Positions 4,190 through 10,691 of a stretch of DNA of 20,640 bases are shown here, piece after piece. The notes beneath the pieces are model-generated. The model made no database searches. It saw nothing but the letters and a program-made list of their open reading frames with translations, and was not told where the DNA came from. A program made the position numbers and the translations under genes. The first letter of the stretch is position 1; the number at the start of each line of letters is the position of its first letter. This DNA comes from a virus: positions 1 to 20,640 of IMG/VR virus record IMGVR_UViG_3300043425_000260. One strand, written 5' to 3'.

Positions 4190-4377
4190 TTCTTCTCCTT
4201 CACCCACAAGCAGTCGAAACAGACCCGCATCATCCAACGCACAAACCAGTTCGGCTCATGCCCTTTTTGCGGGATGTAAGCAAAATACGGGCTGGACGGT
4301 CTGCTACCAAACAGGTAGCACTTCCATTCGGATTTCTCTGGCGTCTTCACGAATTCGTAATTGATTTCTTCATCCAT
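4186..4377 (-). CDS. Small hypothetical protein (63 aa), aromatic- and Cys-containing
   Basis: The ORF starts MDEEINYEFVKTPEKSEWKC and ends with a Trp/Arg/Met-rich WFVRWMMRVCFDCLWVKEKK that contains a single CxxC. The start at 4377 is chosen over 4419 because GGAGAAAAACA lies directly before it and because the longer form would overlap the previous gene heavily. It overlaps the stop of the upstream gene by eight bases and the start of the Zn-ribbon gene by four. I do not recognise a family. The C-terminal amphipathic aromatic segment could contact a membrane or a partner. Confidence 0.65.
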   Translation of the reverse strand: MDEEINYEFVKTPEKSEWKCYLFGSRPSSPYFAYIPQKGHEPNWFVRWMMRVCFDCLWVKEKK

Positions 4378-5086
4378 TGTTTTTCTCCTTGAGTTTGGTT
4401 TCGGTTGCGATGGCAACACAGGCTGGTGTCATGCTGTTGTTCACAATGTGCTCTCTATCCTCATCCGTCAGCCCAACCCATTGCCGCTGTGCTGCGGGTG
4501 TCAGAAGGCATTTACGCAGCGCGTTGAAGGCCTTTTCATTAAGTGCAAGCACCTCAGAGTAGCCATCCATTTCACGCTCGTTGTTTGGCTCACAGTCGTG
4601 CCAGTTGAACAAGAAGTCCCCACTTGCCGCGATTGCGTCCAACGCCATTGCCGCTGCCTTCTCTAGCTCCTGCACGGGTGCTGCCGCTTTGCACTTGTCG
4701 CAGTCGTGGTTTACACAGCCGATCTTTGGCATGTCGTCCTGCACAGGTGCTGGCTGTGCTGCTGGATAGCGCTTTGGCTTCATGTCGGCAGGGTCTAGAT
4801 ACACATCCAAACCAGTCACATACCCCTGCACAGGTGCTGCGGGTGGGGTGGTGTAGAGGGGGCGTACATCGCCCTGTACCGGCTTGCGGTAATACAGGTC
4901 GGTCTTGTCATGCACGCCCTGCCACGCCACAGGCTCCTGCACAGGTGCTGAACGGGCTTGCTTTATGGCGGTGATGGCATCAACACACTCGTTCCAATAT
5001 TCCACAGTCAAACGCTCTTGCTTAGCGTCTTCGAGCATGTGCTCCAACGCCTCCATCGCCAAGTCGAGTGCTTCGTCTTTGGTCAT
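4370..5086 (-). CDS. Repeat-containing accessory protein with APVQ linkers (238 aa)
   Basis: The N-terminal helical region (MTKDEALDLAMEALEHMLED...AITAIKQARSA) is followed by several short segments each introduced by APVQ or a variant: APVQEPVAWQG, KPVQGDVRPLYTTPP, AAPVQGYVTG, PAPVQDDMPK with a CxxxxCxxC motif, and APVQELEKAAAM. A C-terminal domain (about 165-238) is helical. Similar modular proteins with PVQEPVAW and RPLYTTP motifs are common in accessory regions of phages of proteobacteria, without assigned function. The DNA under the APVQ units carries a 15-base repeat. GGGAGAAA upstream supports the start at 5086 rather than 5143. Four-base overlap with the upstream gene. Confidence 0.78.
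   Translation of the reverse strand: MTKDEALDLAMEALEHMLEDAKQERLTVEYWNECVDAITAIKQARSAPVQEPVAWQGVHDKTDLYYRKPVQGDVRPLYTTPPAAPVQGYVTGLDVYLDPADMKPKRYPAAQPAPVQDDMPKIGCVNHDCDKCKAAAPVQELEKAAAMALDAIAASGDFLFNWHDCEPNNEREMDGYSEVLALNEKAFNALRKCLLTPAAQRQWVGLTDEDREHIVNNSMTPACVAIATETKLKEKNNG
4669..4950. repeat. Dispersed 15-base repeat CCTGCACAGGTGCTG (4 copies)
   Basis: Copies at 4738-4752, 4825-4839 and 4936-4950 are identical; that at 4669-4683 has one mismatch. A degenerate copy is near 4872. The core GCAC-AG-GTGC is an inverted repeat. Each copy encodes an APVQ unit on the minus strand, in phase, so the repeats probably arose by module shuffling or duplication inside the gene. Confidence 0.8.
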
Positions 5087-5319
5087 GTGTTTCTCCCAAA
5101 ATTTTGTTGCGCAAACTCTCTTACGATGTCTCGGATGTCGCACATAGCTTGCACTTGCATCCAGTTGGCTTCTTCGATTGTGCGAACATGGTTTTCGTAG
5201 TTCTTTTGGCGAATCAACTCAGCCTCAATAGGGGCAACCTGAATTGCGCCCTTGGCTCTCACACGTTGCCGCATTACCTCCATGCGGTGCATTGAAATTG
5301 CTTCTTTAATGCGGTTCAT
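5083..5319 (-). CDS. Small helical hypothetical protein (78 aa)
   Basis: A 78-residue, highly charged and mostly helical protein (MNRIKEAISMHRMEVMRQRV, then QVAPIEAELIRQKNYENHVRTIEE). The pattern suggests a coiled coil or helical hairpin. AAGGAGAA seven bases before the ATG gives it a near-ideal ribosome site. Its ATG overlaps the upstream stop and its stop overlaps the downstream start (ATGA in both cases). I recognise no family or function. Coding is supported by signals, overlap pattern and composition. Confidence 0.72.
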   Translation of the reverse strand: MNRIKEAISMHRMEVMRQRVRAKGAIQVAPIEAELIRQKNYENHVRTIEEANWMQVQAMCDIRDIVREFAQQNFGRNT

Positions 5320-5486
5320 GTGTTCTCCTTACTTTCTTTGTCCCATCGTTCCCAGCATTCAGTACAAGCCCACTCGCCACCTTCATCTGGTGTTGGATGG
5401 CGTTTGTCGTTGTAAGGCTGACCGCAAAAGTCGCATGACTCAGGGATACCACCGCGCAACTCAGCAATCATTTCAAGAATGTTCAT
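5316..5486 (-). CDS. 56-residue Zn-ribbon protein
   Basis: The ORF reads MNILEMIAELRGGIPESCDF then CGQPYNDKRHPTPDEGG and ends WACTECWERWDKESKENT. Cys18/Cys21 and Cys41/Cys44 form two CxxC knuckles with HPTPDEGG between them, a typical treble-clef/Zn-ribbon layout. GGAGAAACC lies before the ATG at 5486. The start overlaps the upstream stop and the stop overlaps the next start, each by four bases. Function is unknown. The short N-terminal helix plus ribbon could be a protein-binding regulator; this is inference. Confidence 0.75.
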   Translation of the reverse strand: MNILEMIAELRGGIPESCDFCGQPYNDKRHPTPDEGGEWACTECWERWDKESKENT

Positions 5487-5674
5487 TTGGTTTCTCCTTG
5501 ATTGAGTTCATCAAAATCAAACCACTCATGTATTTCGTTGAGCACTTCACGCACAATGGATTCATTGATGTCTGCCGTACTTGGATCATTGTTGTGTTTG
5601 TATGCTCGTGTATGTCCAAGCACCACTCCGTCAGTGATGCACTCTTCGAGCAATCGAATAAATTTTGGTGTCAT
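5483..5674 (-). CDS. Conserved small phage protein (63 aa)
   Basis: The 63-residue acidic protein MTPKFIRLLEECITDGVVLG...SIVREVLNEIHEWFDFDELN resembles short hypothetical proteins I know from accessory regions of other phages, with two helices around a GHTRAYKHN loop. The start at 5674 has GAGGAG upstream; the longer frame from 5734 lacks a ribosome site and covers the preceding small gene. It shares four-base overlaps with both neighbours. No function is assigned. Confidence 0.75.
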   Translation of the reverse strand: MTPKFIRLLEECITDGVVLGHTRAYKHNNDPSTADINESIVREVLNEIHEWFDFDELNQGETK

Positions 5675-5781
5675 AAACAACTCCTCAATGTCAACAGGCC
5701 CAGCATCAGCACAATGAATCCCACCAAGGCCCACACCAGTTGCCCGTCAGCCGGGGTTGGTTTGTTTTCGTCTTCGTTCAT
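5671..5781 (-). CDS. 36-residue single-span membrane peptide
   Basis: The ORF begins MNEDENKPTPADGQ and continues LVWALVGFIVLMLGLLTL before RSCL. A charged N-terminus, one hydrophobic span of about 18 residues and a short basic C-terminal tail are clear. Its ATG overlaps the upstream stop and its TGA overlaps the next ATG, as for its neighbours. The ribosome site (GAGGCAAGC) is moderate. It could be a small inner-membrane accessory or holin-like peptide, but no lysis genes are nearby, so I leave function open. Confidence 0.65.
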   Translation of the reverse strand: MNEDENKPTPADGQLVWALVGFIVLMLGLLTLRSCL

Positions 5782-6017
5782 GCTTGCCTCGCTTTCAGCA
5801 TGGCGTCGGCTATTGCATATACGTATTGCGCATCATCATCAGGATTAAAGTGCAAGGGATTTGACTTGTTTGCCATAAAACCCTGCATCGCCTTGGCTGC
5901 AAAGTAGTCGCGCAGGGTCATGCCACCAACAAAACCCTGATGAAGCTCTTGCCCCGCTGCGGCCACAATTTTTGTGTTTTGTGGAAACGCTGGCCCACCT
6001 GTGTTTGTGTTGCTCAT
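5778..6017 (-). CDS. Conserved phage protein with GMTLRDYFAAKAM motif (79 aa)
   Basis: The protein starts MSNTNTGGPAFPQNTK, contains GMTLRDYFAAKAMQGFMAN and ends YVYAIADAMLKARQA. This GGPAFP...GMTLRDYFAAKA...YAIADAML pattern is widespread in small phage and prophage proteins without assigned function. A good GGAGGA ribosome site precedes the ATG. It overlaps both neighbours by four bases. I am confident it is a real gene of that family and make no functional claim. Confidence 0.85.
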   Translation of the reverse strand: MSNTNTGGPAFPQNTKIVAAAGQELHQGFVGGMTLRDYFAAKAMQGFMANKSNPLHFNPDDDAQYVYAIADAMLKARQA

Positions 6018-6172
6018 TCTGCGTCCTCCAGTGATTCGTTAATTAGCTGCTGCTTGACAAGCTCCAGAACCCCAATCACGGTGGACATGTAGAGCGACTC
6101 GTCATACTTGTGCACAACCTCCAGCAGCTCATCCACCAGCCCTTGGGCCAACGCGCCTTGATTTAAATTCAT
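6014..6172 (-). CDS. Small helical acidic protein (52 aa)
   Basis: The 52-residue ORF MNLNQGALAQGLVDELLEVV...DESLYMSTVIGVLELVKQQL is predicted to be two or three amphipathic helices. GAGGA lies about eight bases before the ATG at 6172; the longer frame from 6376 overlaps two other genes and is rejected. Its ATG overlaps the Zn-ribbon stop and its stop overlaps the next start. No family is recognised. Confidence 0.65.
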   Translation of the reverse strand: MNLNQGALAQGLVDELLEVVHKYDESLYMSTVIGVLELVKQQLINESLEDAE

Positions 6173-6261
6173 TTGATGATCCTCATGAAAGCGCCGCAGC
6201 GGGCGCACTTGTAAATGGGTTGGCCCTCGACAGTCTCCCATTTGTGTTTGCAGTCGCTCAT
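6169..6261 (-). CDS. 30-residue zinc-knuckle mini-protein
   Basis: The ORF is MSDCKHKWETVEGQPIYKCA followed by RCGAFMRIIK. Cys4 and His6 with Cys19/Cys22 give a four-ligand metal site, and the CKHKWETVEGQPIYKCARCG pattern is one I know from tiny phage proteins. AAGGA lies upstream of the ATG at 6261. The ATG overlaps the stop of the HTH gene and the TGA overlaps the next ATG. Function is unknown; it is the third Cys-rich mini-protein of this operon. Confidence 0.72.
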   Translation of the reverse strand: MSDCKHKWETVEGQPIYKCARCGAFMRIIK

Positions 6262-6569
6262 GCTTCGATCCTTGTGGTTGACCTCTTGGTTCGGGATTTT
6301 TTGACATGACTCGATTCCACAGGCAAAAACGAGTTGTGCAGCGCAGGGGCCATCGCTTCGACCATGCCCAGCACATCGAGTAGGCGGCCCACAGCAGCGC
6401 CGGGCTGACGTTCGCCCGTGATCCACTTGCGCACGGTGAACACGGGAACGCCTAGGTATGCAGCGCCCCGGGGTTCGTCAAGGTTCAATCGTTCGAGGGT
6501 GTGTCTCACACGTTCAGCCAGTGACCCGGGAACGGGTGTTTTGAGGGGTTTTAGAGGGGTTTCGGTCAT
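6258..6569 (-). CDS. Helix-turn-helix (XRE-like) regulator, first gene of the accessory operon
   Basis: Residues 16-55 (SLAERVRHTLERLNLDEPRG...GVPVFTVRKWITGERQPGAA) form a Cro/CI-type HTH: helix, turn around AAYLGVPVFTV, recognition helix TVRKWITGERQP. The rest, LGMVEAMAPALHNSFLP plus a basic tail, resembles phage HTH proteins of about 100 residues. It heads the eleven-gene overlapping operon and sits just after a terminator, so it may control its own unit or be expressed by read-through. A degenerate copy of the ACCCANTGGGT element (8 of 11, at 6580-6590) lies in its leader. It is a candidate binder of the palindrome array, unproven. Confidence 0.78.
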   Translation of the reverse strand: MTETPLKPLKTPVPGSLAERVRHTLERLNLDEPRGAAYLGVPVFTVRKWITGERQPGAAVGRLLDVLGMVEAMAPALHNSFLPVESSHVKKSRTKRSTTRIEA

Positions 6570-6596
6570 GGGTAGGGGTGTCCTATGGGTAAGGGT

Positions 6597-6628
6597 TAAA
6601 AAATGCCCCTGAACGTTGATTCAGGGGC
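6597..6628 (-). terminator. Intrinsic terminator upstream of the HTH operon
   Basis: GCCCCTGAA (6605-6613) and TTCAGGGGC (6620-6628) form a perfect 9-bp stem with a 6-base loop. On the minus strand it is followed by ATTTTTTAA, a good U-tract. It lies just after the TM peptide ending at 6635 and 28 bases or so before the HTH start, so it separates the two leftward operons or attenuates transcription into the second. Confidence 0.85.
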
Positions 6629-6634
6629 TTGGGG

Positions 6635-6709
6635 TTACAGGTCGAGGAATCGTTCGATCAAGGGTAGAACGATAGCTCCGGCAATCGCGATTAAAACGGC
6701 GGTTATCAA
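6635..6709 (-). CDS. Putative 24-residue membrane peptide with TTG start
   Basis: Reading from a TTG that overlaps the upstream TGA (TTGA), the frame gives MITAVLIAIAGAIVLPLIER then FLDL and stops at 6635, right before the terminator. The sequence is almost entirely hydrophobic with an acidic C-terminus. GGGGGAGAAG lies at proper distance. The overlap, the ribosome site and the terminator placement make it plausible, but the non-ATG start and tiny size leave real doubt. Confidence 0.45.
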   Translation of the reverse strand: MITAVLIAIAGAIVLPLIERFLDL

Positions 6710-6978
6710 TCGGGCTTCTCCCCCAACGATTTGCGGATCATTTGAATCATTTTTTGCATTACCCGGGGCTTATAAACCCCATCTTCATCTTTCCAGTCTT
6801 CGAAAAAGGGCAGACACTGGATCAGAACATCCTTCAGATCTTCGATCTCCAACTCTTGAACATGGTTCAAGTGCTCAGCATCGGACAGTCGCGCATACAA
6901 GGCAGACACACCGGTAAAGCCCTCAGCGTAGGCCAAGCGTTCAGCGTCAACGGGGTCGAGTTTTGACAAGTCGATCAT
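6706..6978 (-). CDS. Small hypothetical early protein (90 aa)
   Basis: The 90-residue protein begins MIDLSKLDPVDAERLAYAEG and is acidic and helical (NHVQELEIEDLKDVLIQCLP), ending in a basic KPRVMQKMIQMIRKS segment. AAAGGTGAC lies before the ATG. The gap to the upstream gene is ten bases. I see no recognisable domain. It belongs with the upstream small early genes expressed from the 8006-8033 promoter. Confidence 0.72.
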   Translation of the reverse strand: MIDLSKLDPVDAERLAYAEGFTGVSALYARLSDAEHLNHVQELEIEDLKDVLIQCLPFFEDWKDEDGVYKPRVMQKMIQMIRKSLGEKPD

Positions 6979-6988
6979 GGGTCACCTT

Positions 6989-7333
6989 TCAAAAGGACAA
7001 ATAGACAAAACCGTCAGCAGTGTCACCGACAACAGAGGTGCGATCGCTCAGATAGTCAAAGACGATCTGGCGGCACTGGTCTGCGTAGTCGTCTGCCTCT
7101 GGGTCTGCATCGTTCAGGTCGATTGAGTAGTTCCGGGCAATCTCAGCCACAGTGTTTTCGGCGTAATCGCAGCATATGGCGATCACATCAAGCTCGATTT
7201 CTTCACCTATTGATGCTTCGAGTTCTTCAAAGTAATAGAACAACAGTTCCAAACCTTGACGGGAGAAACTGTCCAATCGCCCATAACGGCGGAATGCGTC
7301 TTGGAAATCCGGGAAATCAATAGTTACTTTCAT
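6989..7333 (-). CDS. Conserved phage hypothetical protein (114 aa)
   Basis: The protein reads MKVTIDFPDFQDAFRRYGRL then SRQGLELLFYYFEELEASIG, EEIELDVIAICCDYAENTVA and a C-terminal acidic FDYLSDRTSVVGDTADGFV. The FxDFxDAFRxYGR...GEEIELDVIAICCDY pattern is typical of a widespread short phage protein with no assigned role. AAGGACTG precedes the ATG. The high acidity is compatible with a DNA-mimic or inhibitor role, but this is speculation. Confidence 0.8.
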   Translation of the reverse strand: MKVTIDFPDFQDAFRRYGRLDSFSRQGLELLFYYFEELEASIGEEIELDVIAICCDYAENTVAEIARNYSIDLNDADPEADDYADQCRQIVFDYLSDRTSVVGDTADGFVYLSF

Positions 7334-7358
7334 GGTCAGTCCTTACAAGGGTTACGGG

Positions 7359-7502
7359 TTACAGGGAGAAAACGATAAAGGTTACAGCCCACAATGTGAG
7401 CATGAGTGCAGCGGCACCCAGCCAGATGGCAAAGCCCGAAGGCTCTGCACTGGTTACGGGTTGAGGGTGCAGGTCGATGTAGGTTAGTTGATGGCGGTTC
7501 AT
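7359..7502 (-). CDS. 47-residue single-span membrane protein
   Basis: The ORF reads MNRHQLTYIDLHPQPVTSAE followed by a hydrophobic span (FAIWLGAAALMLTLWAVTFI) and VFSL. The span covers residues about 24-45. GGAG lies eight bases before the ATG, which is three bases after the upstream stop. Single-span small membrane proteins are frequent in phage early regions. Function is unknown. Confidence 0.68.
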   Translation of the reverse strand: MNRHQLTYIDLHPQPVTSAEPSGFAIWLGAAALMLTLWAVTFIVFSL

Positions 7503-7505
7503 GGT

Positions 7506-7748
7506 TTACGCTCCAATGGTCAAAGGGTGATCGGCGCGAAAAGCCGCGCGGTTTTCTTGCACCAGTGCGGCGCGAAACGTGTCCAGATTGATAACGCGAA
7601 ATTGCTTGGCGGGAAACGCCTCGGCAAAGTAAGCCATTGACTTAACTGCATCGCGCTTGAGTGCGTGCGTTTCCAGCGTGATCCAGTTGCGGATCGTTGC
7701 CACGGGCGATTGTGGGTTATCGGTGTAGGTTTGAACGATGTATTTCAT
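7506..7748 (-). CDS. Small hypothetical early protein (80 aa)
   Basis: The 80-residue protein starts MKYIVQTYTDNPQSPVATIR and alternates strands and helices (NWITLETHALKRDAVKSMAY, then FPAKQFRVINLDTFRA). Its ATG overlaps the stop of the preceding gene (ATGA). It resembles short phage proteins of alpha/beta type without names. The coupled start and the good ribosome site of the first gene suggest both are made together. Confidence 0.7.
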   Translation of the reverse strand: MKYIVQTYTDNPQSPVATIRNWITLETHALKRDAVKSMAYFAEAFPAKQFRVINLDTFRAALVQENRAAFRADHPLTIGA

Positions 7749-7957
7749 ACGCTCACCGCCTTGGCAAAGTTAGGTTTAGTGCCGGGCACGAATCCGGCAA
7801 TGCGGAAAGAGTGAAAACCTTGAGCGCTTGCAGCTTGCTTGACCCGTTCGATGTTCTCATGGGCTTTGTCTGTTGCTTTGAAACATGCAAGCAAGTCTTC
7901 CATGTAGTCACGGGTTTCGCCTTGCTTGAGGCCATAAATCAGAATTTCAGTTTGCAT
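7745..7957 (-). CDS. Small hypothetical early protein (70 aa), first gene of the leftward early operon
   Basis: The protein begins MQTEILIYGLKQGETRDYME and continues DLLACFKATDKAHENIERVK and SAQGFHSFRIAGFVPGTKPN. It is a compact alpha/beta small protein with no known domain. AAGGA lies about ten bases before the ATG. It is the first gene after the consensus promoter at 8006-8033, about 45 bases downstream of the -10. Position suggests it is the most strongly controlled gene of the early set. Confidence 0.7.
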   Translation of the reverse strand: MQTEILIYGLKQGETRDYMEDLLACFKATDKAHENIERVKQAASAQGFHSFRIAGFVPGTKPNFAKAVSV

Positions 7958-8005
7958 GGTGTCGAATCCTTACAGTTACAGGGTTACGGGTTGTTGATGA
8001 GATCA

Positions 8006-8033
8006 ATTATAACCCATTGGGTCTGTGTGTCAA
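8006..8033 (-). promoter_or_regulatory. Consensus sigma70-type leftward early promoter with embedded operator
   Basis: On the minus strand, TTGACA (8028-8033) and TATAAT (8006-8011) are both perfect, spaced by 16 bases. The palindrome ACCCAATGGGT (8012-8022) fills most of the spacer and touches the -10. A protein bound there would block polymerase, so this looks like a tightly repressible early promoter. Confidence 0.85.
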
Positions 8034-8514
8034 GCACTCACACGAAAATATCTTCTAGGTGCTTTCCCTAACCCATTGGGTGATGCACTGGTGCATTGTG
8101 ACAGTTGTGCCTTTTGGTTCGAGGGGTTCATTTTGGTGAACTGCTTAATCTTTGTGCAATTTAAAAAGTCGTATCTTTTCGCCTTGCCTGCGCGAAAGGG
8201 ACACCTGTCATCGTCAGCGCCTGAAACTCAGATTTCACCCACTGGGTCAAGGATTCGCACTGACTCACTGACCCACTGGGTGCAACCTAATGACCCACTG
8301 GGTGCACTGACCCACTGGGTGCAACTGGTGCATCTTGACCCCTCAGACCCACTGGGTGCACTGACCCATCGGGTAACGGGGTGTTGACCCATTGGGTGCT
8401 CGGGGTGCGTTTGAATCCGGGGGGAGGGGGTGGGGCCGAGAGGGTCGAGGTCACGGCTACGTAGGCACCACAAAACCCGTGAAAATTTTTTCAAAAATCA
8501 AAAACCCAATGGGT
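8012..8514. repeat. Ten-copy ACCCANTGGGT palindrome array
   Basis: Copies at 8012-8022, 8071-8081, 8237-8247, 8271-8281, 8293-8303, 8310-8320, 8347-8357, 8364-8374 (one mismatch, ACCCATCGGGT), 8387-8397 and 8504-8514. Central base varies (C, T or A) while both arms are fixed, which is how an operator bound by a dimer behaves. Seven copies are packed in 8237-8397 at start-to-start distances of 34, 22, 17, 37, 17 and 23 bases. Three copies extend to the 16-mer TGACCCACTGGGTGCA. The function is inferred: repressor operators, replication iterons or a partition site. Confidence 0.9.
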
Positions 8515-8537
8515 TCACTACCCCCATTTTCCCCATG

Positions 8538-8567
8538 TTGCACACTTCACGTCACACGTAGTACACT
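8538..8567 (+). promoter_or_regulatory. Candidate rightward late promoter before the terminase genes
   Basis: TTGCAC (8538-8543) and TACACT (8562-8567) are spaced by 18 bases. The start point would fall only a few bases before the ATG at 8578, which has no Shine-Dalgarno, so the messenger would be leaderless or nearly so. A palindrome copy (8504-8514) lies about 24 bases upstream of the -35. Match to consensus is moderate. Confidence 0.4.
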
Positions 8568-8577
8568 CCTAGACACT

Positions 8578-9150
8578 ATGAATCAAGCAGACCCTCAATT
8601 CGTAGGCACGGTTGTCACCGGAGAATCACCGCTACCGTCTTGGCTTTCCGTGCCTGACCCTAAACCACCTCGCATGAGCAAGGAGGCACGAGCGTTGCTG
8701 CACCTCGAATATGAGCAAATCTTCGAGCGTGTGGTGGAGGACGTGTACCGGGGCAGATCGCTTCAGTCACTGATTGAGGATGACCACAGGGCCATCTCGT
8801 ATGAGGACTTTTTGCGCTGGGTCAAGCGTGAACCCACTCGCCACGAACGGTTCAAGGAAGCGCAGGAGATGCGCACGGAGTTTCTTGCCGGGGAAATCCT
8901 AGAGATTGCCGATGGGGTTGAAGCAGTTGACCCGCACTCCAACGATACGGTCAACCGGGACAAGTTGCGCATCGACACGCGCAAGTGGCTCATGAGTGCG
9001 CACAACAGGAAGCGCTACGGCGAGACAAAGCAGATTGAACTCGGCGGCACTATCAGCATCACCGAGGCGCTGGCGCAGGCCCAAGCTCGGGTGATCGAGA
9101 ATGAGGTGCTGGACGTGACTGACGTGACGCCAAGATTGGAGAACGACTGA
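8578..9150 (+). CDS. terS: Terminase small subunit, Sf6-like
   Basis: This 190-residue protein binds the packaging site on phage DNA and loads the large subunit. Residues about 50-90 (YRGRSLQSLIEDDHRAISYE...FLRWVKREP) form a DNA-binding HTH-like helical domain. Residues about 100-150 (EFLAGEILEIADGVEAVDPH...RDKLRIDTRKWLMSAHNRKRYG) match the conserved core of Sf6/P22-type small terminases. The tail ITEALAQAQARVIENEVLD is probably the large-subunit contact. I chose the ATG at 8578 because the upstream in-frame extension is repeat-derived and low-complexity; 8674 is an alternative. Its TGA overlaps the terL ATG. Confidence 0.87.
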   Translation: MNQADPQFVGTVVTGESPLPSWLSVPDPKPPRMSKEARALLHLEYEQIFERVVEDVYRGRSLQSLIEDDHRAISYEDFLRWVKREPTRHERFKEAQEMRTEFLAGEILEIADGVEAVDPHSNDTVNRDKLRIDTRKWLMSAHNRKRYGETKQIELGGTISITEALAQAQARVIENEVLDVTDVTPRLEND

Positions 9151-10691
9151 TGCAGAAGATGCGCTACTCACCCGAGGACGAGCAGACGCTGATGGCGCAG
9201 CTATGGAGTCCGTCGATCAAGGACGACCCAGAGGCGTTCGTTCTGTTTGCGTTCCCTTGGGGGCAGAAGAACACACCACTTGAGCACTTCAAGGCACCTC
9301 GCAGGTGGCAGCGGGACGTGCTGCGTGAGATTCGTCAGTTCATTGTGGACAACCGGGGCAAGCTCAACCAGCATGAGTTGATCGAGGCCATGCGCCAAGC
9401 GGTGTCCTCTGGCCGGGGGGTGGGGAAGTCAGCACTGGTTAGCTGGTTGATCCTGTGGATGCTGAGTACTCGGATAGGCAGTTCTGTCATCGTATCGGCC
9501 AACAGCGAGAACCAGTTGCGTAAGGTGACATGGGGTGAGTTGACCAAATGGGTCACGATGGCGCTCAACGCCCACTGGTGGGAACCCACGGCCACAAGCC
9601 TGAACCCAGCGCAGTGGCTGACCGAGTTGGTCGAGCGTGACCTGAGGAAAGGCACCCGGTACTGGGGCGCTGAGGGTAAGCTCTGGAGCGAGGAGAACCC
9701 TGACGCCTACGCCGGTGTGCACAACATGGACGGGATGATGGTGATCTTCGACGAAGCCAGCGGTATCCCGGACAGCATCTGGTCCGTGGCTGCGGGCTTC
9801 TTTACCGAGAACATCTTGGACCGGTACTGGCTGGCGTTCAGCAACGGTCGTCGCAACACGGGGTACTTCTACGAAGCCGTGGACGGTAGCAAGCGGGAGT
9901 TTTGGAGAAGCCGCAAGATCGACGCCCGGCAAGTCGAGGGCACCGACAAGAGCATCTACCAGCAGATCATCGACGAGTACGGCGAGGACAGCGACGAGGC
10001 CCGGGTCGAGGTCTACGGGGACTTCCCCAAGTCCGGCCAAGACCAGTTCATCGCACCTCACTTGGTCGATGACGCCATGAAGCGGGACAAGTACAAGGAC
10101 ATGACTGCGCCGATCGTAATCGGCGTTGACCCGGCCCGGGGCGGCATGGACAGTACTGTGATTGCCGTGCGCCAAGGGCGGGACATCGTGGCGATCAAGC
10201 GGTTCAAGGGCGAGGACACCATGAGCGTGGTGGGCCACGTCATTGACGCCATTGAGGAGTACCGGCCAGCGCTCACCGTGATCGACGAGGGTGGTCTGGG
10301 CTACGGCATCCTTGACAGATTGACCGAGCAGAAGTACAAAGTGCGCGGGGTCAACTTCGGCTGGAAGGCCAAGAACCCCATCATGTGGGGCAACAAGCGG
10401 GCTGAGATTTGGGGCGCGATGCGCGATTGGGTCAAGACGGCCAGCTTGCCGCCCGACCGGTTGCTCAAGAACGACCTGACCGGCCCGATGAAGAAGCCCA
10501 ACTCGGCAGGCACCATCTTTTTGGAAGGCAAAAAAGAAATGAAGTCAAGAGGCTTGGCATCACCCGATGCCGCTGATGCCATTGCCGTCACATTTGCCTA
10601 CCCTGTTGCAAGCCGGGGTGGATACAATAAACCCGAGCGCCGCATATCTTCTGAGCGCGGCATGGTTTCAACTGGATGGATGGGGGCTTAA
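9150..10691 (+). CDS. terL: Terminase large subunit (ATPase and nuclease)
   Basis: The 513-residue packaging motor couples ATP hydrolysis to DNA translocation and cuts the concatemer. The ATPase domain shows a P-loop SSGRGVGKS (86-94) and a Walker B MMVIFDE (196-202). The C-terminal RNase-H-like nuclease shows IGVDPARGGMDST with Asp327, VIDEGG with Asp379, and SPDAADA with Asp473/Asp476. Length and motif order match complete large terminases. Start overlaps the small-subunit stop (TGATG). All catalytic residues are present, so it should be functional. No sign of intein or frameshift. Confidence 0.96.
   Translation: MQKMRYSPEDEQTLMAQLWSPSIKDDPEAFVLFAFPWGQKNTPLEHFKAPRRWQRDVLREIRQFIVDNRGKLNQHELIEAMRQAVSSGRGVGKSALVSWLILWMLSTRIGSSVIVSANSENQLRKVTWGELTKWVTMALNAHWWEPTATSLNPAQWLTELVERDLRKGTRYWGAEGKLWSEENPDAYAGVHNMDGMMVIFDEASGIPDSIWSVAAGFFTENILDRYWLAFSNGRRNTGYFYEAVDGSKREFWRSRKIDARQVEGTDKSIYQQIIDEYGEDSDEARVEVYGDFPKSGQDQFIAPHLVDDAMKRDKYKDMTAPIVIGVDPARGGMDSTVIAVRQGRDIVAIKRFKGEDTMSVVGHVIDAIEEYRPALTVIDEGGLGYGILDRLTEQKYKVRGVNFGWKAKNPIMWGNKRAEIWGAMRDWVKTASLPPDRLLKNDLTGPMKKPNSAGTIFLEGKKEMKSRGLASPDAADAIAVTFAYPVASRGGYNKPERRISSERGMVSTGWMGA

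Follow-up and report, generated by a model that had tools for sequence, protein, structure and literature searches.

A palindrome array between divergent early and late promoters as a probable early-to-late transcription switch in relatives of Phage DSL-LC05

Why would a phage gather ten copies of one short palindrome in a single intergenic region, and which protein reads them? The question is raised by a window of 20,640 bases, the whole of IMG/VR record IMGVR_UViG_3300043425_000260, to which our within-genome motif counts are confined. The window covers part of the genome of an uncultivated, P22-like podovirus. Its terminase genes match those of a relative, Phage DSL-LC05 (accession OR003940, from Dishui Lake, with a circular genome of 37.6 kb), which was placed by its authors in a proposed new family (PMC10611076). 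As relatives we used 80 viral loci from a scan with the large terminase (TerL); repeating the scan with TerL from a relative without such an array (L043) as query returned a nearly identical set. Rfam and tRNA scans gave no match, and a genome scan for a host matched three metagenome-assembled contigs only, so no host is assigned. Our answer, which we consider probably correct, is that the array controls a switch from early to late transcription, in which a small early helix-turn-helix (HTH) protein would turn an early promoter off and a late promoter on.

The array and the two promoters that it spans

The features on which the argument rests are as follows (sites without a stated strand are palindromic or unassigned).

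4370 to 7957, minus strand: leftward early genes, HTH gene included, downstream of PL; gene order as in Phage DSL-LC05
6258 to 6569, minus strand: small HTH protein (XRE/MqsA-HigA type) of 103 aa in the early leftward gene string; proposed array binder
8006 to 8033, minus strand: PL, leftward early promoter, TTGACA (8033-8028), 16-bp spacer, TATAAT (8011-8006); 12/12 sigma-70 consensus
8012 to 8022: site 1, ACCCATTGGGT, proposed early-promoter operator, exactly in the -35/-10 spacer of PL
8071 to 8081: site 2, ACCCATTGGGT, its centre near -77 relative to a PL start inferred at 7999
8237 to 8397: middle cluster, sites at 8237, 8271, 8293, 8310, 8347, 8364 (one mismatch) and 8387
8482 to 8503: conserved A/T tract, AAAATTTTTTCAAAAATCAAAA, adjoining the last site; perhaps an UP element or a bend
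8504 to 8514: site 10, ACCCAATGGGT, proposed as the activator site of the late promoter, its centre 53 bp upstream of the -10
8538 to 8567, plus strand: PR, rightward late promoter, weak -35 TTGCAC (8538-8543), -10 TACACT (8562-8567)
8578 to 10691, plus strand: first late genes, terminase small subunit (TerS, Sf6-like) and large subunit

The initial annotation had described a cluster of ten palindromes, nine exact and one with a mismatch, and no full copy elsewhere in the window. Both statements hold: nine exact copies of ACCCANTGGGT start at 8012, 8071, 8237, 8271, 8293, 8310, 8347, 8387 and 8504, the tenth, at 8364, is ACCCATCGGGT, with a single mismatch, the cluster extends from 8012 to 8514, and there are no other exact copies in the 20.6 kb. 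With up to one mismatch allowed the window holds 12 matches where 0.82 are expected, a number reached by none of 100 shuffles; the two further matches (2349 and 9543) are single-mismatch copies within genes. Exact copies in near-complete genomes of relatives are likewise concentrated in one stretch, almost exclusively the array region (one such genome of 37 kb has seven within about 520 bp), and the wider pattern ACCCRNYGGGT adds few single copies outside it. In the literature searched we found no direct match to the motif.

Mycobacteriophage L5 is the familiar case of a phage genome with many copies of a short repressor site, its stoperators being asymmetric and scattered through the genome. 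The suggestion that the present array might be stoperator-like does not fit, because in the near-complete relatives the sites, palindromic here, are concentrated in one region and not spread genome-wide.

That region lies between divergent genes, the minus-strand genes extending to 7957 and the small terminase gene starting at 8578, and in most relatives too the array is found directly upstream of TerS, between leftward early and rightward terminase/late genes. Could it be where the small terminase binds for packaging (a pac site)? Its position beside that gene speaks for this, but TerS of the array-less relatives L032 and L043 is 71% identical whereas relatives with TerS of only 44-65% identity have full arrays, and the spacing rule at PR that we describe below is not expected of a packaging site. 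We give this explanation hardly any credence.

No promoters had been placed here by the initial annotation; the array in fact spans one early and one late promoter. A scan of 7700-8700 found PL as a single promoter-like match, on the minus strand, with site 1 filling its spacer. Across the group we listed strong leftward promoters (at least 10/12 matches), which gave 39 distinct sequences: a site lies at the same 5-6 offset in 26 of them and overlaps the -35 box in six more (L005, L024, L038, L052, L054, L082). The distance from site 1 to site 2 is 58-60 bp in 21 of the loci counted, and a strong PL match is missing in several relatives. The putative repression at PL is the strongest part of the proposed switch.

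Other blocks in the intergenic region are also conserved. Between sites 2 and 3 (8091-8215), GTGACAA..CCTTTT, TTTTCGCCTTGCCTGCGCGAAAGG and TTGTCA are kept in nine aligned relatives, parts of them also in the array-less L032 and L043; they are possibly the sites of another regulator or an origin. A G-rich stretch at 8418-8437, CCGGGGGGAGGGGGTGGGGCC, is kept in relatives and could form a G-quadruplex. A DNA hairpin at 8160-8230 was considered and set aside, since folding there is no better than in shuffles (z -0.16).

Does the region, then, hold a replication origin, with the palindromes as initiator-binding repeats (iterons)? A long non-coding region with an A/T tract, a G-rich stretch and further conserved blocks, in a phage with its own primase-polymerase, would suit one. 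Against this, the iterons that had been proposed are a poor fit, for the sites are palindromes and not regularly spaced direct repeats, their spacing is irregular and unphased, they are tied to promoters, L032 and L043 keep the primase but not the sites, and the cumulative GC skew of the complete relative L001 has no clear turning point at the array. We therefore consider an origin reading of the array very unlikely, while an origin could coexist with the switch in the same region. A partition site had been suggested as well; the annotation of the complete relative contains no partition genes.

The spacing rule at the late promoter

At the right-hand end of the array, PR is weak. In relatives the sequence upstream of the TerS start has an extended -10-like element, TGnTAnnAT, followed by CACTATG, and the -35 is poor in most. 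The inferred start of PR, at 8574-8575, is 3-4 nt ahead of the TerS ATG, and a start at 8574 would centre site 10 near -65. As a separate observation, in the window (8562-8580) about 10 nt separate the end of the PR -10 from the TerS ATG, and relatives are similar; the terminase mRNA may be nearly leaderless.

How is the last site placed relative to PR? Measured from its centre to the -10, the last site lies 32-33, 42-44 or 51-54 bp away in every locus where a site falls within 60 bp (for L008 the -10 was set as in its near twin L009). We grouped spacer sequences so that identity between clusters is below 65%; 35 clusters have a site within 60 bp of the -10, and all 35 fall in the three spacing classes. 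Their phasing at 10.5 bp is R=0.92 (Rayleigh p about 1e-13), a value reached by none of 200,000 uniform random sets; this period was set in advance, the in-phase length classes being taken from the data. The TerL tree requires at least 23 changes of spacing class, which means that common descent alone is insufficient to explain the rule, although some of these changes could be non-independent through recombination. The rule may be read as an evolutionary record of contact between activator and polymerase, in which the helix face was kept through at least 23 changes on the tree.

Loci that depart from the canonical arrangement were also considered. The last exact site lies at 91 and 105 bp in L045 and L072, outside the spacing rule; in L048 and L072 degenerate sites retain a spacing of about 52 bp, counted by eye; and in L071 and L077 no site adjoins PR, apparently due to inserted genes. 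Was the phased element the A-tract, rather than the site? In 17 loci with a shifted A-tract, picked for that shift, phasing was weaker for the A-tract (R 0.67) than for the site (R 0.94; paired p=0.002), and we rejected this possibility.

In our reading of these sequences, steps of one turn are what an activator in contact with RNA polymerase would leave behind, and on the basis of the spacing rule activation at PR by an array-bound protein, though predicted, is well supported. Precedents exist in class I activation by CRP, with its periodicity of about 10.5 bp (PMC6301791), and in the Mor activator of phage Mu, centred at -43.5 (PMC4390567), close to our shortest class at about -44. At CRP class I/II promoters and at the Mor promoter, as here, an activator site lies upstream of a weak promoter, and CRP shares a helical spacing rule; they differ in that the proteins are unrelated by annotation and that here the three turn positions occur as natural variants in one phage group. 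If the switch is real, this phage family provides natural variants in which the activator site stands at three consecutive helical turns from the same promoter type.

Many small HTH proteins of phages only repress. Might the protein do nothing else here, the sites being operators of PL and PR whose many copies allow cooperative or looped silencing of both arms? Site 1 does occupy the PL spacer and the array does lie between both promoters, as this explanation would have it; but the last site is clear of the PR -10, its inferred positions of about -44, -55 or -65 advancing by one helical turn in an activator arrangement, and the spacings between neighboring array sites are unphased (R=0.17, n=153), which does not favor rigid looping. 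We judge pure repression unlikely. Ten near-complete relatives contain no tyrosine integrase that we could find, which makes a lysogeny repressor less likely. Repression at PL combined with activation at PR is the arrangement that we prefer.

The candidate binder

It had been argued initially that the array implies a sequence-specific dimeric DNA-binding protein and an operator system, and comparison of sequences gives this idea good support. Two proteins had been named for testing, and they fared differently. The HTH protein encoded at 6258-6569 is the best candidate, and that it binds the array is a good inference from sequence. Nearly all relatives carry its gene on the early strand. Its AlphaFold model is a five-helix domain (mean pLDDT 84), and its best PDB profile match is the HTH domain of MqsA (E=0.00095; HMMER alignment). 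The model aligns to HigA2 and MqsA with Z of 6.8-7.4, values near 7 being common for small helical domains and no proof of kinship, and a Foldseek search with it gave no match below E 0.001. MqsA reads an 11-bp palindrome, 5'-ACCT(N)3AGGT, via Asn97 and Arg101 (PMC4901048), and the array palindrome has the same 11-bp ACC-N5-GGT geometry.

Diverged relatives carry variant motifs, ACCCGCTGGGT/ACCCAGCGGGT among them, and in some relatives a change in the protein goes with a change in the motif. By our reading of the HMMER alignment, Asn97 and Arg101 of MqsA correspond to Phe44 and Lys48 of the HTH protein, and Lys48 is altered in L048 and in L075 and L076, whose motifs differ. The recognition helix RNW of L048 pairs with a non-palindromic half-site array, ACCCATTG, variant half-sites of which, read by eye, lie in the same promoter; the helix RHW of L075 and L076 pairs with ATCC-type sites. 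HTH gene and array are both missing from L043, the whole genome of which was searched, and neither was found in L032 or L002, an association of presence and absence that comprises just these three HTH-negative relatives.

In L043, at 8760-9160, an unrelated AAACATC/GATGTTT repeat array occupies the same place, around a TTGACA-16-TACAAT promoter of the PL kind which, read by eye, is flanked by this motif. This relative, which lacks the HTH protein, seems to have exchanged regulator and sites as a unit.

The other protein initially named, the ribbon-helix-helix (RHH) protein at 687-896, probably does not bind the array, since relatives without the array conserve its TVRVT-type strand as well. 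It is found, with that strand conserved, in most relatives holding the region, and perhaps has a site of its own near the primase promoter. TerS and the primase were rejected as binders, both being conserved in L032 and L043.

Would another protein work the same switch, for instance a regulator of the host or an early phage protein that escaped recognition? In six HTH-positive relatives (L040, L041, L072, L075, L076, L081) the canonical array is weak, variant or undetected, as this would allow. Yet the HTH gene is missing from array-less relatives whereas RHH, primase and TerS persist in L032 and L043, and the 11-bp geometry is one that MqsA-type HTH domains recognise; a different binder seems to us quite unlikely.

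The proposed switch and its precedents

With the HTH protein as binder, the switch would proceed as follows. The leftward early operon would be expressed and yield the HTH protein, which would bind as a dimer to the ACCCANTGGGT sites. At site 1, in the -35/-10 spacer of PL, it would block RNA polymerase and so shut off the early operon along with the gene for the HTH protein itself; when bound to the rightmost site, on the helix side that faces polymerase, it would recruit polymerase to the weak PR and turn on the terminase/late operon. The middle sites, which differ between relatives in number and spacing, may adjust cooperativity or timing.

The switch most likely works like that of phi29 protein p4, by analogy and not by homology. 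Protein p4 controls the early-to-late switch at promoters A2c/A2b and A3 (PMC3100819), and it resembles the present case in that several inverted-repeat sites lie between early and late promoters and the regulator is an early phage protein (here, the candidate). In both, sites overlap early promoter elements, here with the conserved site 1 over the PL core, and one site serves a late promoter with a poor -35, here in polymerase register by the 32/43/53-bp rule. The phi29 system differs in the unique N-hook fold of p4, its 5'-CTTTTT-15-AAAATG sites and its partner, the nucleoid protein p6, whereas here the candidate is an HTH of XRE/MqsA type, the palindrome is 11 bp long and present ten times, and the early promoter points away from the late one.

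The antitoxin-type repressors MqsA and HigA (PMC4901048, PMC4894380) seem to share with our candidate the HTH domain, by profile and fold, and the ACC-N5-GGT palindrome (ACCT-N3-AGGT), and they repress their own promoters by binding within them, as we propose here. Unlike them, the 103-aa phage protein has little beyond its HTH domain and no adjacent toxin partner was recognised, its neighbors having no named toxin match in Pfam or PHROG; activation of a late promoter is additionally proposed. We suggest tentatively, as a possibility worth entertaining, that in a freshwater phage family a single-domain MqsA/HigA-like HTH protein came to serve both as early repressor and as late activator, and that the regulator and its whole array can be lost or swapped together. 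An antitoxin-type HTH would then be acting as an activator. For most uncultivated phages the control logic has yet to be worked out, and here comparison of sequences by itself has led to an early-to-late switch that can be tested.

Two minor observations concern the neighborhoods of these genes. Between the RHH gene and the primase, an ORF at 914-1546 of the window resembles, by eye, an HNH endonuclease carrying a second DNA-binding domain. Upstream of TerS in L012, L025 and L095, a 33-bp insertion (AAATGCTTCTACGAACCATTGACCCC...) displaces the last site and supplies a new one at an in-phase distance (53, 42, 33).
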